Source: an uncultured SAR86 cluster bacterium (GTDB lineage Bacteria; Pseudomonadota; Gammaproteobacteria; Magnimaribacterales; D2472). Taken from it: a stretch of DNA of 35,579 nt. Under the pieces are notes generated by a model, which searched no databases, was not told where the DNA came from, and saw only the letters and a program-made list of their open reading frames with translations. The first letter of the stretch is position 1, and each line of letters begins with the position of its first letter. The DNA lies in assembly GCA_902559345.1 (NCBI GenBank), contig CACEHH010000009.1, positions 1 to 35,579 on the forward strand, written 5' to 3'. Both the position numbers and the translations under genes were made by a program. This document shows, piece by piece, positions 21,855-27,497 of the stretch.

Positions 21855-23672
21855 CTAATTATCATTAATGGCAGATAAAGATGCTAAAGCAACTCCCAAA
21901 TTACCCAAAATTGACACGTAAGCCTGAGCAGCTAGCCTTCTAGTAGCTGAGTTATCTAATTTCTTCGGAACAAATATTATTGATCCGGGATATAAATTTA
22001 TAGTCTGAGGCTGATTAGCAAATAAATTCTTTTTCTTTGAAAATTTTTCTGTTTCTCCATTTGGATGCAAAATATAGATTGATTCTGTATCTGCAAATCT
22101 TTTAAGCCCTCCGGATTTAGAAATAAAATATTCAACATCCTTATTCGGACTATACATAACCGAACCCTCTGATGATACTTCACCATATACATAAACATTA
22201 TTAGTTATTTCTGGAATTACTAAGGTATCACCCTCTCTAACATTCACATTACTGTATTGACTATCGCCTTGCAAATCAACTATAACTCTTCCACTTGGCT
22301 TTGAATTTTTAATTTCTTGTGTGAGCCTAATTATTGGTGTTAGGTCAAAATTCTCACTAATATTTTGTTGACTCATTATAATAATATTATCTAGGAATTC
22401 TTCATATAAAAGATCTTTAACATTTTTATTAATAATCTTTGCTTCATTATTTTCGTAGACTGCTCCAAAGGGATATGCATTTTCTGTGTATCCACCTGCT
22501 TTTTCCACCAAATCTTGTAATGTTTCACCTGCAGCCATAGTATAAAAACCTGGTTTATATATAGCACCTGAAATTCTTGCTGTCCTGTAAGAGTATTCTC
22601 TTACATAAACTAAATCACCATCTATTGGCTTAATCGATTTAAATTGAGATGTATTTACAACCGGTATAGATTTCAACGTCCCATCTAAAAGTCTCTCCAA
22701 TGAAATATTTTCTAGATCAGCTGTTTGTTTCATACCATTAGCAAATCTAAAAATACTGTCTAAATACTCTTCATCATTTAACTCATATTTAGCACTTCTT
22801 TTAACTGCGCCATCAATAGTTACTATATTTTTTCTTGGTTTTATAAAAATAACGTCACCTGACCTAAGGCGCTTATTTAAAGAATAATTACCATCTATTA
22901 AAAGATCATAAACATCAAGCGTTTCTATAGTCTCATTATTTCTTATTAAATTTATTTCTCTATATGAGCCAAACTCGTTTATGCCCCCTGAAACAGTTAA
23001 GGCATGTAAGATATTTGAATTTCCTGTCAAGGTATAAACTCCAGGATTTTTTGCATTTCCTGAGACTAAAATATTTACATCTCTTATTTCACTCAAGGTA
23101 ACGTAAGATTCTGTACCAAAATAAATATTTTCAACTCTTGATTTTATTAAAGATGCGGCTTCATTTAATGTGAGTCCTGCTAATACTAATTTACCAATAC
23201 CGGGAATATTAATTGAGCCATCGCCAGTAATTGGAAAGTTTTCAATAAATTCTTCTTGGCCAACTAGTTGAATATTAACAACATCACCATTATCAAGTGT
23301 ATAAGATGAATCTGGGTTTGGTTCATTTATTGGCATAAATGAAGTTTGAAATGTTGTGAAAAAATCAGAGCCAAAAATCTTTAACTCTTTATTTGCTGTG
23401 ATTTCATCATCGGTCTTTAATCTTCTTTCTAGCTCTTCTAAATCTGCTTCCAACCTTGCTTTAAGATTTATTAGACTTTCGTCCTCACCCATTCTGCTTG
23501 AATATATTGATGCTCTATAATTTTCCTTAGCGTTTTCGGTTTGTTTTTCTGATTTCTCAATCAAATCTTCTCTGATATCTTCTGGCAAACTATCAAGGTA
23601 GGATTCATCTAGCTGCTGTGACTGAGCAAAAGTACAGAACAATAACGTACAAAATATTCTAAAATTTTTCAT
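21855..23672 (-). CDS. SLBB/polysaccharide export protein (Wza-like)
   Basis: The 605-residue protein is taken from ATG 23672, where the signal peptide MKNFRIFCTLLFCTFAQS begins; an in-frame ATG at 23735 would prepend 21 residues and lies upstream of the predicted promoter. A charged, coiled-coil-prone segment (about 40-95) precedes the polysaccharide-export domain (YTLDNGDVVNIQLVGQEEF, about 124-142; DGSINIPGIGKLVLAGLTL), followed by several SLBB beta-grasp repeats (VSGNAKNPGVYTL, ISGAIYKPGFYTM, VYGEVSSEGSV). A hydrophobic C-terminal helix may span the outer membrane, as in Wza. There is no lipobox cysteine, unlike E. coli Wza. It forms an operon with the YjbH gene and probably makes the export channel. 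Confidence 0.9.
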   Translation of the reverse strand: MKNFRIFCTLLFCTFAQSQQLDESYLDSLPEDIREDLIEKSEKQTENAKENYRASIYSSRMGEDESLINLKARLEADLEELERRLKTDDEITANKELKIFGSDFFTTFQTSFMPINEPNPDSSYTLDNGDVVNIQLVGQEEFIENFPITGDGSINIPGIGKLVLAGLTLNEAASLIKSRVENIYFGTESYVTLSEIRDVNILVSGNAKNPGVYTLTGNSNILHALTVSGGINEFGSYREINLIRNNETIETLDVYDLLIDGNYSLNKRLRSGDVIFIKPRKNIVTIDGAVKRSAKYELNDEEYLDSIFRFANGMKQTADLENISLERLLDGTLKSIPVVNTSQFKSIKPIDGDLVYVREYSYRTARISGAIYKPGFYTMAAGETLQDLVEKAGGYTENAYPFGAVYENNEAKIINKNVKDLLYEEFLDNIIIMSQQNISENFDLTPIIRLTQEIKNSKPSGRVIVDLQGDSQYSNVNVREGDTLVIPEITNNVYVYGEVSSEGSVMYSPNKDVEYFISKSGGLKRFADTESIYILHPNGETEKFSKKKNLFANQPQTINLYPGSIIFVPKKLDNSATRRLAAQAYVSILGNLGVALASLSAINDN

Positions 23673-23715
23673 ATATATTCTCTGGTTGCCGTAAGATAAT
23701 CCTCTAAACTTCAAC

Positions 23716-23721
23716 ATTATA
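23716..23721 (-). promoter_or_regulatory. Probable -10 box of the polysaccharide export operon
   Basis: A perfect TATAAT on the minus strand would start transcription near 23708, about 36 bases before the SLBB gene's ATG. The -35 region is poor (TATTTA at 17-base spacing). Next to it, AGCATT (23731-23736) and AATGCT (23746-23751) form a short inverted repeat just after pheT. Confidence 0.35.
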
Positions 23722-23766
23722 TATAATTTTAGCATTTTTAAATAGAATGCTTGGGTATGTTAGAAA

Positions 23767-25674
23767 TTATTTCAATCCTGGAATGCTTACGGAGTCAATG
23801 CTAACAGTATTATTTATTATTTGATCAATGATATTGTTAACTTCATTTTCTGTGATTGTTTTTTCATTGGATTGAAAAACAAATCTAAAACCAATTTTAA
23901 TTTCAGATTGTTTCTCGTTATGGAAATAATCAAAAATAAAAACCTCTCTTAAAAGTCGATCTCTAAATTCATATATACGTTCTTCCAATATTTTAAATTT
24001 TGCAGGATCTTTTACCGAATATGATAAATCTCTTATAGACCGAGGAAAGTCCGATACAGGCGAATACTTAAAATTATTAATAGGTAAGGTTTTTGATACT
24101 TCACTAGAATAATTTATCTTAATTGAAGAATCGAGCAGAAATTCAATATAAGTTATTGGATGTTTTAATTTTGTATTCAAGCTCTCCCTAGAAATATCCA
24201 CTATATTAAGTTGGTTTAAATCTATGATTCCTTCGAAAATAGAACCTATATATTTCTTATCTATAAATTTAGAAAAGTCTCTATAATTCTTATCTATACG
24301 CCCAGATGCAATTATTCCAATTAATCTTTTGTTGGCATCAGGCGAAGATGAATAAACATTTGATATTTCAAAAAGCTTTACGCTATCTTGTTGCCGCCTT
24401 TCATTGTATAAAAGGTTATCTATAAGAGAGTCTTTTAGATTTTGTCTTAAAAATTTCCTACTTGAATCAAGCGGATTATCTATTTCAATTGCATCTTCAT
24501 TATTTTGTGAAGTAAAGGGATTATTTATCACCTCATAAAAACCATTTTCTGTAAGTAAATTTTTTAGCCTATCCTCTTGGCTAAATATTTTGCTATCTTT
24601 GTTAAACGTAATCTTAAAATTCGTTGATTTAATTTTATCGAAGCCAATTGATCTAGCTATTTCCTCTGATATATCATTAGAATTTTGAATGTCGTGCCTA
24701 TATGATGGCACTTCAATAGAATCTTCATTAATATAAAATCCTAATCTTTTTAAAATTTCAGAACATTTTGATTTTTCTATAGCTGTTCCAAGAACACTAT
24801 TAATCTTGTTAATCCTAAAAGGAACAATGGTTTTTTTTTCATGTGCATTTGACTCTGAAAATAATTCAATTTTATTTATATTTGCATGCTTTTCTATAAT
24901 TCTTAGAAATCTTCTCAAGACATATTCGTGGCAAGCAGGATCTGTATTTCTTTCAAATTTGTGAGAGGCATCTGATCTTATATCGTATAAAACAGATTTA
25001 CCTATAATTGCCTCTGGATCAAAATAGGCACATTCAACAATAACAGATCTGGTATTTTTAGAACATGCAGTATTTATACCTCCTACAATACCAGCAAGAT
25101 TAATGACATCATTATTCTCATTAAAAAAAACTAAATCACCTTTATTTAATTCAATTATTTTTCCAAGCAAAGTCTCAAATTTAACTTTTTTATCTAAAAA
25201 ATCTAATTTTATATAATTTCCGAGTTTTAATGCATCATAACAGTGTGTAGGTTGACCAGTTTCATATGAAATATAATTAGAAATGTCTGTAAAAAAATTA
25301 TTCCTTTTTACATCCATATCATCAAAATACTCCTTTAGCTCTCCATTGTAATTTTGTGAGACTTCATCCACCTCTATTTTTAAAAAAGAAATATTTGAAC
25401 AATGTTTTTTAACATTATTATTAAAGTTTAACGATAATGTGTTTATGGATTTATTGAAAATATCATTACTGATACTAACATCATAAAATAATTTTAAATC
25501 TCTTAATAACCCGTTAATTGATAAGCAATCTCCTCTATTTGGGGTAAATTCGAAATCATAAATATCATCATGAATTTCATGTTCATGACCAAGCTGAAAT
25601 AATTTGTCTGATAATTCATTTTTATTGAGCTTTGAATTAATTTTTTGTTTTAAATGTTGGTATGATAATTTCAT
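23767..25674 (-). CDS. pheT: Phenylalanyl-tRNA synthetase beta subunit lacking the B2 tRNA-binding domain
   Basis: The protein has 635 residues against about 795 in E. coli. It begins normally (MKLSYQHLKQKINSKL..., the B1 start) but passes directly from FQLGHEHEIHDD (about 26-37) to FEFTPNRGDCLSINGLLRDL (about 41-60). In E. coli those motifs are separated by the EMAPII-like OB-fold B2 domain, about 115 residues. The remainder is present: the B3/B4 editing region (IVECAYFDPEAI, SDASHKFERNTDP), the B5 region (SEEIARSIGFDKI), the catalytic-like B6/B7 region, and the C-terminal FDX-ACB domain (FPRSIRDLSYSV to the end). The start ATG overlaps the pheS stop as ATGA. The frame is intact, so this is a compact functional form, not a pseudogene. 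Confidence 0.95.
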   Translation of the reverse strand: MKLSYQHLKQKINSKLNKNELSDKLFQLGHEHEIHDDIYDFEFTPNRGDCLSINGLLRDLKLFYDVSISNDIFNKSINTLSLNFNNNVKKHCSNISFLKIEVDEVSQNYNGELKEYFDDMDVKRNNFFTDISNYISYETGQPTHCYDALKLGNYIKLDFLDKKVKFETLLGKIIELNKGDLVFFNENNDVINLAGIVGGINTACSKNTRSVIVECAYFDPEAIIGKSVLYDIRSDASHKFERNTDPACHEYVLRRFLRIIEKHANINKIELFSESNAHEKKTIVPFRINKINSVLGTAIEKSKCSEILKRLGFYINEDSIEVPSYRHDIQNSNDISEEIARSIGFDKIKSTNFKITFNKDSKIFSQEDRLKNLLTENGFYEVINNPFTSQNNEDAIEIDNPLDSSRKFLRQNLKDSLIDNLLYNERRQQDSVKLFEISNVYSSSPDANKRLIGIIASGRIDKNYRDFSKFIDKKYIGSIFEGIIDLNQLNIVDISRESLNTKLKHPITYIEFLLDSSIKINYSSEVSKTLPINNFKYSPVSDFPRSIRDLSYSVKDPAKFKILEERIYEFRDRLLREVFIFDYFHNEKQSEIKIGFRFVFQSNEKTITENEVNNIIDQIINNTVSIDSVSIPGLK

Positions 25675-26396
25675 TTAAATTGACTCAAAAAATCTAAATT
25701 TGATTTATAAAAATCTCTTATATCTAATACGCCAAATTTAAGCATTGCTATTCTTTCAATACCTAATCCAAAAGCAAGTCCAGAATACTGCTCGTTATCA
25801 ATTTTACAATTTTGAAGAACTATTGGGTTAACAACACCGCATCCCAATATTTCTAGCCATTTGCCATCTTTAGACAAAATATCAACTTCAGCTGAAGGCT
25901 CTGTAAATGGAAAATATGACGGTCTAAATCTAATCTTTATATCTTCACCAAATAAAAAGTGAACTATTTTATAAATTAGATCTTTTAGGTTTGAGAAACT
26001 AACATTATTATCAACATAAATTCCTTCAATTTGATGAAACATAGGCAAATGAGTGGAATCATCATCTTTTCTGTAAACTTTTCCCCCTGAAATAAATGCG
26101 AATGGAGGCTTTTTATTAAGCATTCCTCTTATCTGGACAGGAGAAGTATGAGTTCGCAATACATGTGATTTATTATTTACATAAAATGTATCATGCATTT
26201 GTCGAGCCGGATGTGACTCTTTAATATTTAACATATCAAAATTAAACTCTTCCGTCTCAATTTCTGGCCCATCTGCTATCTCAAATCCAAGGCTTATGAG
26301 AAAGTCGATTATAGAGTCTTTTACCTGATTTATTGGATGATGTGAACCTTGATTTTTAATTATTTTTGGAGGACCAAAGTCTCTATTCTGTGACAT
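25671..26396 (-). CDS. pheS: Phenylalanyl-tRNA synthetase alpha subunit lacking the N-terminal coiled coil
   Basis: The 241-residue protein contains the whole class II catalytic core: the GSHHPINQVKDSI start (E. coli GGLHPVTRTI), motif 2 (RKDDDSTHLPMFHQIEG), PSYFPFTEPSAEVDI, LGCGVVNP and motif 3 (GLAFGLGIERIAMLKFG). E. coli PheS has 327 residues; the missing part is the N-terminal segment of about 85 residues, the coiled coil that contacts tRNA-Phe. An in-frame TAA directly precedes the ATG at 26396, and rplT ends 12 bases upstream, so no longer start exists. There is also no room for a pheM-type leader peptide or attenuator. It attaches Phe to tRNA-Phe together with PheT. Confidence 0.95.
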   Translation of the reverse strand: MSQNRDFGPPKIIKNQGSHHPINQVKDSIIDFLISLGFEIADGPEIETEEFNFDMLNIKESHPARQMHDTFYVNNKSHVLRTHTSPVQIRGMLNKKPPFAFISGGKVYRKDDDSTHLPMFHQIEGIYVDNNVSFSNLKDLIYKIVHFLFGEDIKIRFRPSYFPFTEPSAEVDILSKDGKWLEILGCGVVNPIVLQNCKIDNEQYSGLAFGLGIERIAMLKFGVLDIRDFYKSNLDFLSQFK

Positions 26397-26408
26397 TTAA
26401 ACCAAGTG

Positions 26409-26756
26409 CTAGTTAACTGCTCGCTCAACAACCTTATTAAAAGTTGAATTATCGTTAACAGCTAGATCTGCAAGTATTTTTCTGTTCAAAACTATATTTT
26501 TTGCTGCTAATAAATGAATAAGTTTTGAGTATGACACTCCAGCTTGTTTAGAACCGGCATTAATTCTAGCAATCCAGAGAGATCTAAAATTTCTTTTTTT
26601 ATTTTTTCTATCTCTGAAAGCATATTGTAGCGACTTGATATTTGACTGCTTAGCAGTTTTATATAATCTACTTCTAGCTCCATAATGACCTTTTGTAGAT
26701 TTAAGAATTTTTTTATGCTTTGCTTTGGCTGTGACTGATTTAGTTACTCTTGACAT
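26409..26756 (-). CDS. rplT: 50S ribosomal protein L20
   Basis: The 115-residue basic protein is of normal length and has the L20 features: the extended arm AKHKKILKSTKGHYGARSRLYKTAKQ, RDRKNKKRNFRSLWIARINAG, and SYSKLIHLLAAKNIVLNRKILADLA. It binds 23S rRNA early in 50S assembly. The gene starts 5 bases after rpmI, as in the classic infC-rpmI-rplT operon, where L20 represses translation of its own operon in other bacteria. Confidence 0.97.
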   Translation of the reverse strand: MSRVTKSVTAKAKHKKILKSTKGHYGARSRLYKTAKQSNIKSLQYAFRDRKNKKRNFRSLWIARINAGSKQAGVSYSKLIHLLAAKNIVLNRKILADLAVNDNSTFNKVVERAVN

Positions 26757-26761
26757 GATAT

Positions 26762-26956
26762 TTACCTGTTAATCAACTTAGAGGCCATCTTTAAAACAGT
26801 GCTATCAAGTTTTTTAAGACCTCTATTATGTCTCTTCCTTTTTGTAGATTGTTTTGTAAGAATATGATTTCTATTAGCACTTCTGCTTTTTACAGATGTA
26901 CCAGTTTTTTTAAACCTTTTTGCGGCTCCAGAATGTGTTTTAAGTTTATATCCCAT
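26762..26956 (-). CDS. rpmI: 50S ribosomal protein L35
   Basis: The 64-residue basic protein shows the L35 pattern: [18 protein letters not shown] at the start and the [19 protein letters not shown] core. The length is standard. It starts 7 bases after infC and is followed 5 bases later by rplT. Confidence 0.97.
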
Positions 26957-26963
26957 AATAAAT

Positions 26964-27497
26964 CTAATTTTTTTTCTTTAATGGTGATAAAACCATTAAA
27001 AGTTGACGACCTTCTAATGAAGGCTCTTGGTCAACCTGAGCTATATCCTTAAGCTCATCTTTTAATCGATTTAGTAAATCGAGACCCATATTACTATTTA
27101 AGATTTCTCTACCTCTAAATCGGACGCTTATTTTAGTCTTTACTCCGTCAAGAATAAAGCTTTTTATCTTGTTAAATTTAATATTGTAATCACCTACATC
27201 TGTTGATGGCCTAAATTTAATTTCTTTAGCCGAAGTTCTTTTTACTTTTCCTTTAGATGCTGCATGGCTTTTCTTTTTATCAAAAAGATATTTTCCATAG
27301 TCTATAAGCTTACAAACGACTGGGTCTGCATCAAGTGGTGAAACCTGAACTAAATCAAGAGATGAAGATTTTGCTTCTTCAAGCGCTTGTGAAATAGAGA
27401 CTATGCCTTTCTTTTGTCCATCAGCATGAATTAGCAATACCCTACTGGCTTTAATTTTCTCATTAACAGGAGTTAATTGTCTTTTTGAGATTCTCAC
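26964..27497 (-). CDS. infC: Translation initiation factor IF-3 with a non-AUG start
   Basis: IF-3 binds the 30S subunit and discriminates against wrong start codons. The 177-residue frame shows the N-domain ([42 protein letters not shown]), linker and C-domain ([34 protein letters not shown]). No ATG precedes the conserved part. The candidates are GTG at 27497 and ATT at 27509, the latter directly after an in-frame TAG. From the ATT, the distance to the conserved core resembles that in E. coli IF-3, which starts with AUU. Either choice keeps a codon that IF-3 itself discriminates against, consistent with autocontrol. There is no clear Shine-Dalgarno. It heads infC-rpmI-rplT-pheS-pheT. Confidence 0.95.

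Follow-up and report, generated by a model that had tools for sequence, protein, structure and literature searches.

In bacterial phenylalanyl-tRNA synthetase (PheRS), the N-terminal coiled coil (CC) of the alpha subunit PheS grips the elbow of the tRNA. The B2 domain of the beta subunit PheT, an OB-fold, is reportedly called a 'dispensable RNA-binding domain' contributing to editing in the title of a 2006 study of the Escherichia coli enzyme by Roy and Ibba, and mitochondrial PheRS is built from the catalytic core and the FDX-ACB domain, with neither CC nor B2. According to published work, the CC takes part in binding the tRNA and the B8 domain of PheT contacts the anticodon loop (PMC3275996), and the CC is called critical for the tRNA interaction of Thermus PheRS (PMC7948948). 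PheRS beta chains without B2 have been reported for many bacteria of the candidate phyla radiation (CPR; PMC5370408), a Mycoplasma pneumoniae strain stays viable with its PheT split into a B1-B2-B1 and a B3-B8 piece (PMC12494982), and the mitochondrial enzyme is a single alpha-type chain without editing (PMC7373986). Here we analyse the pheST operon in a 35,579-nucleotide stretch of DNA (the window; contig CACEHH010000009.1 of assembly GCA_902559345.1) from an uncultured SAR86 cluster bacterium. Comparative sequence analysis makes it likely that this operon encodes a functional, bacterial-type PheRS that was reduced stepwise and lacks the elbow clamp, the only PheRS found in the draft genome, and that the reduced operon was transferred from one SAR86 family to another.

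Bacteria of the SAR86 cluster live free in the plankton. They are reported to account for up to 6% of the microbes in the surface ocean (PMC11582366), and phylogenomics in the same paper gives the order Magnimaribacterales four families, with Suzuki (GTDB D2472) sharing an origin with CHAB-I-7 (TMED112), and RedeBAC7D11 with Magnimaribacteraceae. Below, the four families are labelled f1 to f4 and their genera by g numbers; f1 presumably corresponds to Suzuki/D2472, f4 to CHAB-I-7/TMED112, and f2 and f3 to the remaining two, judging in part by the RpoB tree below.

A PheRS without the coiled coil and the B2 domain

The alpha subunit at this locus consists of the catalytic module alone. Its first methionine aligns opposite residue 88 of E. 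coli PheS (reference locus L205), and the open frame of 241 aa, with a stop codon directly in front of its ATG, leaves no room for additional sequence upstream. The preliminary description of this DNA had PheS starting at the catalytic domain after that in-frame TAA and lacking a CC of about 85 residues, both of which the alignment to E. coli PheS bears out. In a Pfam scan, tRNA-synt_2d was the single family over its cut-off, tRNA_synthFbeta being sub-threshold (0.23), and the CC family PF02912 was not listed at E-values up to 10. PheS scored 302 bits against the NCBIfam profile TIGR00468, over the cut-off of 237.45. The AlphaFold model has a predicted local distance difference test score (pLDDT) of 85.5, with residues 1-17 and 234-241 below 50; its best match in the PDB is E. 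coli PheS (56% identity), and its structural matches include the mitochondrial PheRS entries 3cmq and 3tup. Sixty columns are invariant across 43 PheS catalytic domains, comprising 33 CC-less ones of SAR86 and 10 of other bacteria, so that, as judged from the sequences, the catalytic motifs are conserved.

In the beta subunit the B2 OB-fold is absent as one clean cut inside B1, on alignment to E. coli PheT, and the sequence fits a form in which B1 is intact without its B2 insert. The B2 family PF01588 was not listed for PheT at E-values up to 10, and B1 itself (PF18262) gave a weak, sub-threshold match of 16.4 bits against 26.8 (0.011). PheT scored 139.6 bits against the mitochondrial-type profile TIGR00469, below its cut-off of 258.35. 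The AlphaFold model (pLDDT 90.1) has no low-confidence break in B1 at the B2 scar, and its best PDB matches are bacterial PheT chains. A missing B2 of about 115 residues had been proposed earlier and is right, and the Pfam matches and editing residues agree with the earlier statement that the catalytic, editing and FDX-ACB regions are intact; a trimming of B7 had escaped notice (Table 1).

Alignments of PheS and of PheT were made with 32 sequences each, 28 from SAR86 (13 CC-less and 15 CC-bearing) and four others. Among the residues that we take to form the E. coli editing site (H265, G318, E334, T354 and A356), the columns of H265, G318 and E334 show no variation across the 32 PheT sequences. 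At A356 the residue is Ala or Ser whether or not the genome has the CC. At T354 every one of the 13 CC-less rows has Ser, as does the CC-bearing f3g9, and the remaining CC-bearing rows and the outgroups have Thr.

Stepwise losses within SAR86

A survey of the SAR86 order covered 203 genomes, of which 153 had a PheS match and 151 a PheT match; frame lengths in this and the other genome surveys are those among the matches listed. Fragments and broken frames aside, PheT frames measure 632-700 aa in all four families. PheS frames fall into two groups, one of 239-256 aa in f4 and in f1 genera g1, g2, g12, g13, g15 and g17, and one of 324-352 aa (complete matches) in f2, f3 and f1 genera g14, g16 and g18. 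The CC has been lost in f4 and in six of the nine f1 genera with a PheS match; genus g3 had no match.

The alignments locate the missing parts precisely. The B2 core (E. coli residues 40-148) is represented by zero residues in all 28 SAR86 PheT sequences. Opposite E. coli PheS residues 1-85 there are zero residues in all 13 CC-less sequences, and 80-85 residues in 13 of the 15 CC-bearing ones. Three rows, f2g20, f2g11 and the outgroup out_G328, were aligned with too late a start, their full frames being 334, 350 and 417 aa. PF02912 was present in the f3 genome G037 (E 6e-20). A further gap in PheT, in B7 at E. coli residues 631-660, leaves all ten CC-less f1 rows empty, and the other 18 (three from f4 and the 15 CC-bearing SAR86 rows) hold 27-34 residues there.

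Since B2 is absent order-wide while the CC is kept in f2, f3 and f1 g14, g16 and g18, the two losses are separate and ordered, and since the B7 gap is limited to CC-less f1, its trimming came last. B2 was lost before the four families split, the CC later, and part of B7 last, within f1.

Phylogeny of the reduced operon

All CC-less sequences form one clade at 100/100 support both in the PheS tree (238 columns), on a stem of 0.87 changes per site, and in the PheT tree (610 columns), on a stem of 1.68. By the approximately unbiased (AU) test, f1 as one clade was rejected for either protein (p-AU 7.8e-5 for PheS, 8.5e-79 for PheT). In conflict with this, the RpoB tree (1137 columns) has f1 as one clade at 100/100 with f4 as its sister (89/85), and for RpoB it is the grouping of the CC-less rows as one clade that was rejected (p-AU 1.8e-7). 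A combined infC and rplT tree likewise places f4 outside f1 (91/86). Compared with the proteins of the source genome, those of f4 are 62-65% identical in RpoB but 72-75% identical in PheS, whereas those of CC-bearing f1 are 78-80% identical in RpoB and 51-56% in PheS. On the strength of the conflict between trees and of these identities, we read the reduced pheST as transferred: the operon probably moved between the f4 and the CC-less f1 lineages, in either direction.

One f4 genome (G041; single contig, 95% complete) had no match to PF00562 (RpoB), which may be a gap, a masked stretch or a real oddity; the three other f4 genomes searched all matched.

tRNA-Phe

The source genome's own tRNA-Phe was called by ARAGORN, and 31 SAR86 rows were compared, 16 CC-less and 15 CC-bearing, one of them cut by a contig end. 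The G34-A35-A36 anticodon, U20, G44, U45 and U59 are present in all 31, and A73 in all 30 that reach the 3' end. These positions are kept in CC-less and CC-bearing rows, indicating that the tRNA was not remodelled. A compensating change in the tRNA was looked for and not found; U60 to C60, the one change that came up, occurs in 10 of 11 CC-less f1 rows and is absent in f4.

The tRNA-Phe of one genome (G143; L279, matching a contig of SCGC AAA076-P13) deviates in the acceptor stem and T arm. It may be foreign DNA in a single-cell genome or a replaced tRNA gene.

Losses outside SAR86

In a class sample of 369 Gammaproteobacteria genomes, 39 gave no hit to the B2 of E. coli at a threshold of E 1e-6: four from SAR86, 13 without a PheT match, and 22 others. 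Twenty of these 22 were aligned. In 18 of them B2 is gone and no more than 12 residues stand where it would be; in G453 a low-complexity stretch of 25 residues does, and G264 keeps a B2-sized stretch, as does a control with a weak B2 match (G319). The two outside the alignment, G222 and G476, have PheT frames of length 796 and 805. There are thus 19 B2-less genomes outside SAR86, in 11 families, and PF02912 was matched in all 19 (weakest in G367, E 1.4e-4). One gammaproteobacterium among those examined (G520; L116, family f108), with a genome of 3.0 Mb that is 98% complete, has no B2 and a full PheS, so a genome need not be small to have lost B2. Being recurrent and already in print, a natural B2-less PheT is not new.

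Loss of the CC is the rarer of the two. PF02912 was not matched in 18 of the 369 genomes, namely the three CC-less SAR86, 11 that also lack a PheT match, and four others, of which G301 and G490 are truncated at the edge of a contig and G317 and G399 are undecided. In this sample CC loss appears confined to SAR86, G317 and G399 aside. The survey also took in the 80 nearest PheS loci, in which frames of 239-256 aa were found in 42 and of 290-480 aa in 38. The 42 short-frame loci are labelled mostly SAR86, some carrying broader or other labels (for example L134, Neomarinimicrobiota; L149; L164), at 67-82% identity.

Searches of the literature, seen in excerpts, found no description of a CC-less bacterial PheS, and a PheRS that has two subunits and edits but has lost the CC seems not to have been reported there. 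The earlier suggestion that the form as a whole is undescribed stands for the alpha subunit and falls for the beta subunit, since B2-less beta chains are in print for CPR bacteria (PMC5370408).

Genome context and copy number

The order infC-rpmI-rplT-pheS-pheT is the same as in E. coli (Table 1). The gene that follows pheT in E. coli is ihfA, and the same holds for all CC-bearing SAR86 loci inspected. Among CC-less loci, no ihfA was found at this place in 13 of the 15 from f1 (L097 and L100 keep it) or in any of four from f4 (loci compared, L085-L124). In the region described here (21855-23767 of the window) a polysaccharide-export-like gene follows pheT in place of ihfA.

Table 1. Positions in the window of the pheST genes, their domains and deletion points, and the genes upstream.
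Feature	Position	Strand	Remarks
infC	26964-27497	-	upstream of rpmI
rpmI	26762-26956	-	upstream of rplT
rplT	26409-26756	-	upstream of pheS
In-frame TAA directly 5' of pheS ATG	26397-26399	-	plus-strand TTA
pheS	25671-26396	-	241 aa; alpha subunit, catalytic module alone, no N-terminal CC
Class II PheS catalytic core, PF01409	25677-26363	-	321 bits
pheT	23767-25674	-	635 aa; beta subunit without B2; ATG overlaps pheS stop by 4 bases
B2 deletion point	25572-25573	-	junction of PheT residues 34/35; E. coli 35-153 unpaired
B3/B4 editing domain, PF03483	24883-25338	-	Pfam, over cut-off; E. coli H265, G318, E334, A356 kept; T354 to Ser
B5 domain, PF03484	24640-24822	-	Pfam, over cut-off
Catalytic-like module B6/B7, PF17759, truncated	24133-24612	-	Pfam, over cut-off
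B7 deletion point	24207-24208	-	after PheT residue 489; E. coli 631-660 unpaired
FDX-ACB anticodon-binding domain, B8, PF03147	23809-24054	-	57.6 bits, cut-off 31.1

The source genome (G000) is a 34-contig draft estimated to be 71.7% complete. A PF01409 profile search of it found PheS and one sub-threshold match (contig C19, 17.4 bits), which lies in a 588-aa open reading frame (ORF) that, from its sequence, we take to be aspartyl-tRNA synthetase. No stand-alone EMAPII/OB protein was found in this draft, the sole PF01588 match being the C-terminus of a 651-aa ORF that we presume to be methionyl-tRNA synthetase. There was no match to the CC (PF02912, E 0.01) or to E. coli B2 anywhere in the source genome or in two more complete ones (G015, 96%; G038, 97%). 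The check proposed in the preliminary description, for a second PheRS or a separate EMAPII/OB protein in the source genome, thus turned up neither, and PheS and PheT are the sole PheRS found in the draft.

Across the order, PheS matches once per genome in 150 of the 153 that match at all, the exceptions being G160, G169 and G176. PheS of the short lineage occurs in 61 of the 153. Its frame is open over 239-256 aa in 59 of these; the remaining two are G202, with 232 aa and a match beginning 6 bases from the contig end, and G160. The pheS of G160 (L099) has in-frame stops, the pheT of G130 (L092) contains two TAA codons, and the pheT of G156 (L064/L125) is split into small pieces. The broken frames in these three assemblies are perhaps sequencing errors.

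Discussion

The short genes could in principle be an artefact of assembly, binning or gene calling, or a decaying second copy. The draft state and 71.7% completeness of the source genome would allow for this, yet the same short frames recur in 59 genomes, many of them single-cell and metagenome assemblies, with operon order and PheS motifs conserved, and on this ground we reject an artefact or pseudogene as next to inconceivable. The two tRNA-binding modules might instead have been lost simultaneously, as one coordinated remodelling of tRNA-Phe recognition. This had been the preliminary description's view, of a paired loss reflecting coordinated streamlining, and it has in its favour that each module has been linked with tRNA in bacterial PheRS and that both are absent here. 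It does not survive the wider comparison: B2-less PheT coexists with full-length PheS in f2, f3 and three f1 genera, the 19 B2-less genomes outside SAR86 all match PF02912, and tRNA-Phe is the same before and after the CC loss. We regard a simultaneous loss as very improbable.

More bears on the distribution of the CC-less form between f1 and f4. The CC might have been lost once in a common ancestor of the two families and inherited vertically, f1 g14, g16 and g18 having later acquired a CC-bearing pheST. The shared origin of Suzuki/D2472 and CHAB-I-7/TMED112 in published phylogenomics (PMC11582366) and the sister relationship of f1 and f4 in RpoB fit such a history. However, CC-bearing f1 sequences are sister to the CC-less clade (PheT 99/98; PheS 88/94), as expected of native f1 genes, and the source PheS is far closer to f4 than the source RpoB is, so that we hold this course to be unlikely. 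If the CC was instead lost independently in f4 and f1, convergence or long-branch attraction would have to join the two in the trees, and both lineages are indeed fast-evolving (f4 RpoB branch 0.84). Against this, the clade that unites them sits on a long common stem and has shorter branches within, the 13 CC-less rows share one starting point, at about E. coli residue 88, and no CC remnants or differing break points were seen in the aligned rows. At three PheS and 13 PheT columns, every CC-less row has replaced a residue that the CC-bearing rows conserve (the three mis-started PheS rows excluded), and f4 PheS is 72-75% identical to the source PheS. Independent losses are accordingly improbable, and transfer of the already reduced operon between the two families is the reading that we prefer.

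Several observations weigh against parts of our interpretation. With 365.3 bits, PheT lies under the cut-off of the bacterial profile TIGR00472 (pheT_bact; 402.65), so that automatic annotation and completeness estimates may miss the PheT of the CC-less lineage. Global superposition of the PheT model on PDB chains is poor, with a template modelling (TM) score of about 0.5 and a root mean square deviation of about 20 Å, which leaves its domain arrangement unsure. The long branches leading to the CC-less clade in both trees could mean relaxed function, the incompleteness of the source genome bears on the claim of a sole copy, and pheS or pheT frames are broken in a few assemblies (G160, G156 and G130). 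For infC and rplT, the CC-less rows as one clade were not rejected (p-AU 0.10), and together with the long RpoB branch of the fast-evolving f4 this leaves some room for vertical descent. The other f1 genera could also have regained a CC from an unsampled donor.

This PheRS is very likely functional. We infer from the comparisons above that it is active, is an (alpha-beta)2 oligomer and makes weaker contact with the tRNA elbow. In the course of events that we propose, the OB-fold B2 of PheT was lost before the four SAR86 families split, the N-terminal CC of PheS later, and part of PheT B7 last, within f1; the reduced operon would have been passed between two families rather than made twice. The enzyme would most likely still be (alpha-beta)2, with PheT B8 reading the anticodon, PheS charging the 3' end and B3/B4 editing Tyr-tRNA-Phe. 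With the elbow clamp gone, tRNA binding is predicted to be weaker and the editing chemistry intact, and tRNA-Phe identity should rest on the anticodon and acceptor end.

The SAR86 enzymes form a natural series, B2-less with a CC, then CC-less, then B7-trimmed, that faces nearly the same tRNA-Phe, and could show how much tRNA binding, identity and editing each owe to the separate modules. The series bears on the minimal size of an editing, two-subunit PheRS, as a natural test of the minimum of an essential enzyme. On balance, we lean slightly towards the general view that a heterotetramer-type PheRS can charge tRNA-Phe without the elbow clamp, having arisen in ocean bacterioplankton by ordered loss followed by horizontal spread between SAR86 families, and that it is stable, portable and editing-proficient. 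If this is true, a two-subunit enzyme that retains editing can do without the CC in recognising tRNA-Phe, and do so lastingly and in more than one lineage.

The SAR86 form shares with the bacterial (alpha-beta)2 PheRS of E. coli, Thermus and Mycobacterium tuberculosis the operon order, the catalytic core, B1, B3/B4, B5, B6/B7 and B8, and the editing residues, and differs from it in having no CC, no B2 and a shortened B7. The E. coli PheRS that was reportedly studied without B2 is missing the same module, but SAR86 lacks it naturally and has lost the CC as well. B2 is cleanly absent in the beta chains described for CPR bacteria (PMC5370408) and in other Gammaproteobacteria, as it is here; in the gammaproteobacterial cases the cut likewise lies inside B1, but those 19 keep the CC of PheS. 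The split PheT of Mycoplasma pneumoniae shows the B1-B2 part to be modular, though B2 is kept there, on a separate piece (PMC12494982). Set against the mitochondrial monomer, the SAR86 enzyme keeps two genes and subunits and the B3/B4 editing domain. Loss of B2 alone is already known, and it is the CC-less, two-subunit, editing PheRS that appears to be a new variant.

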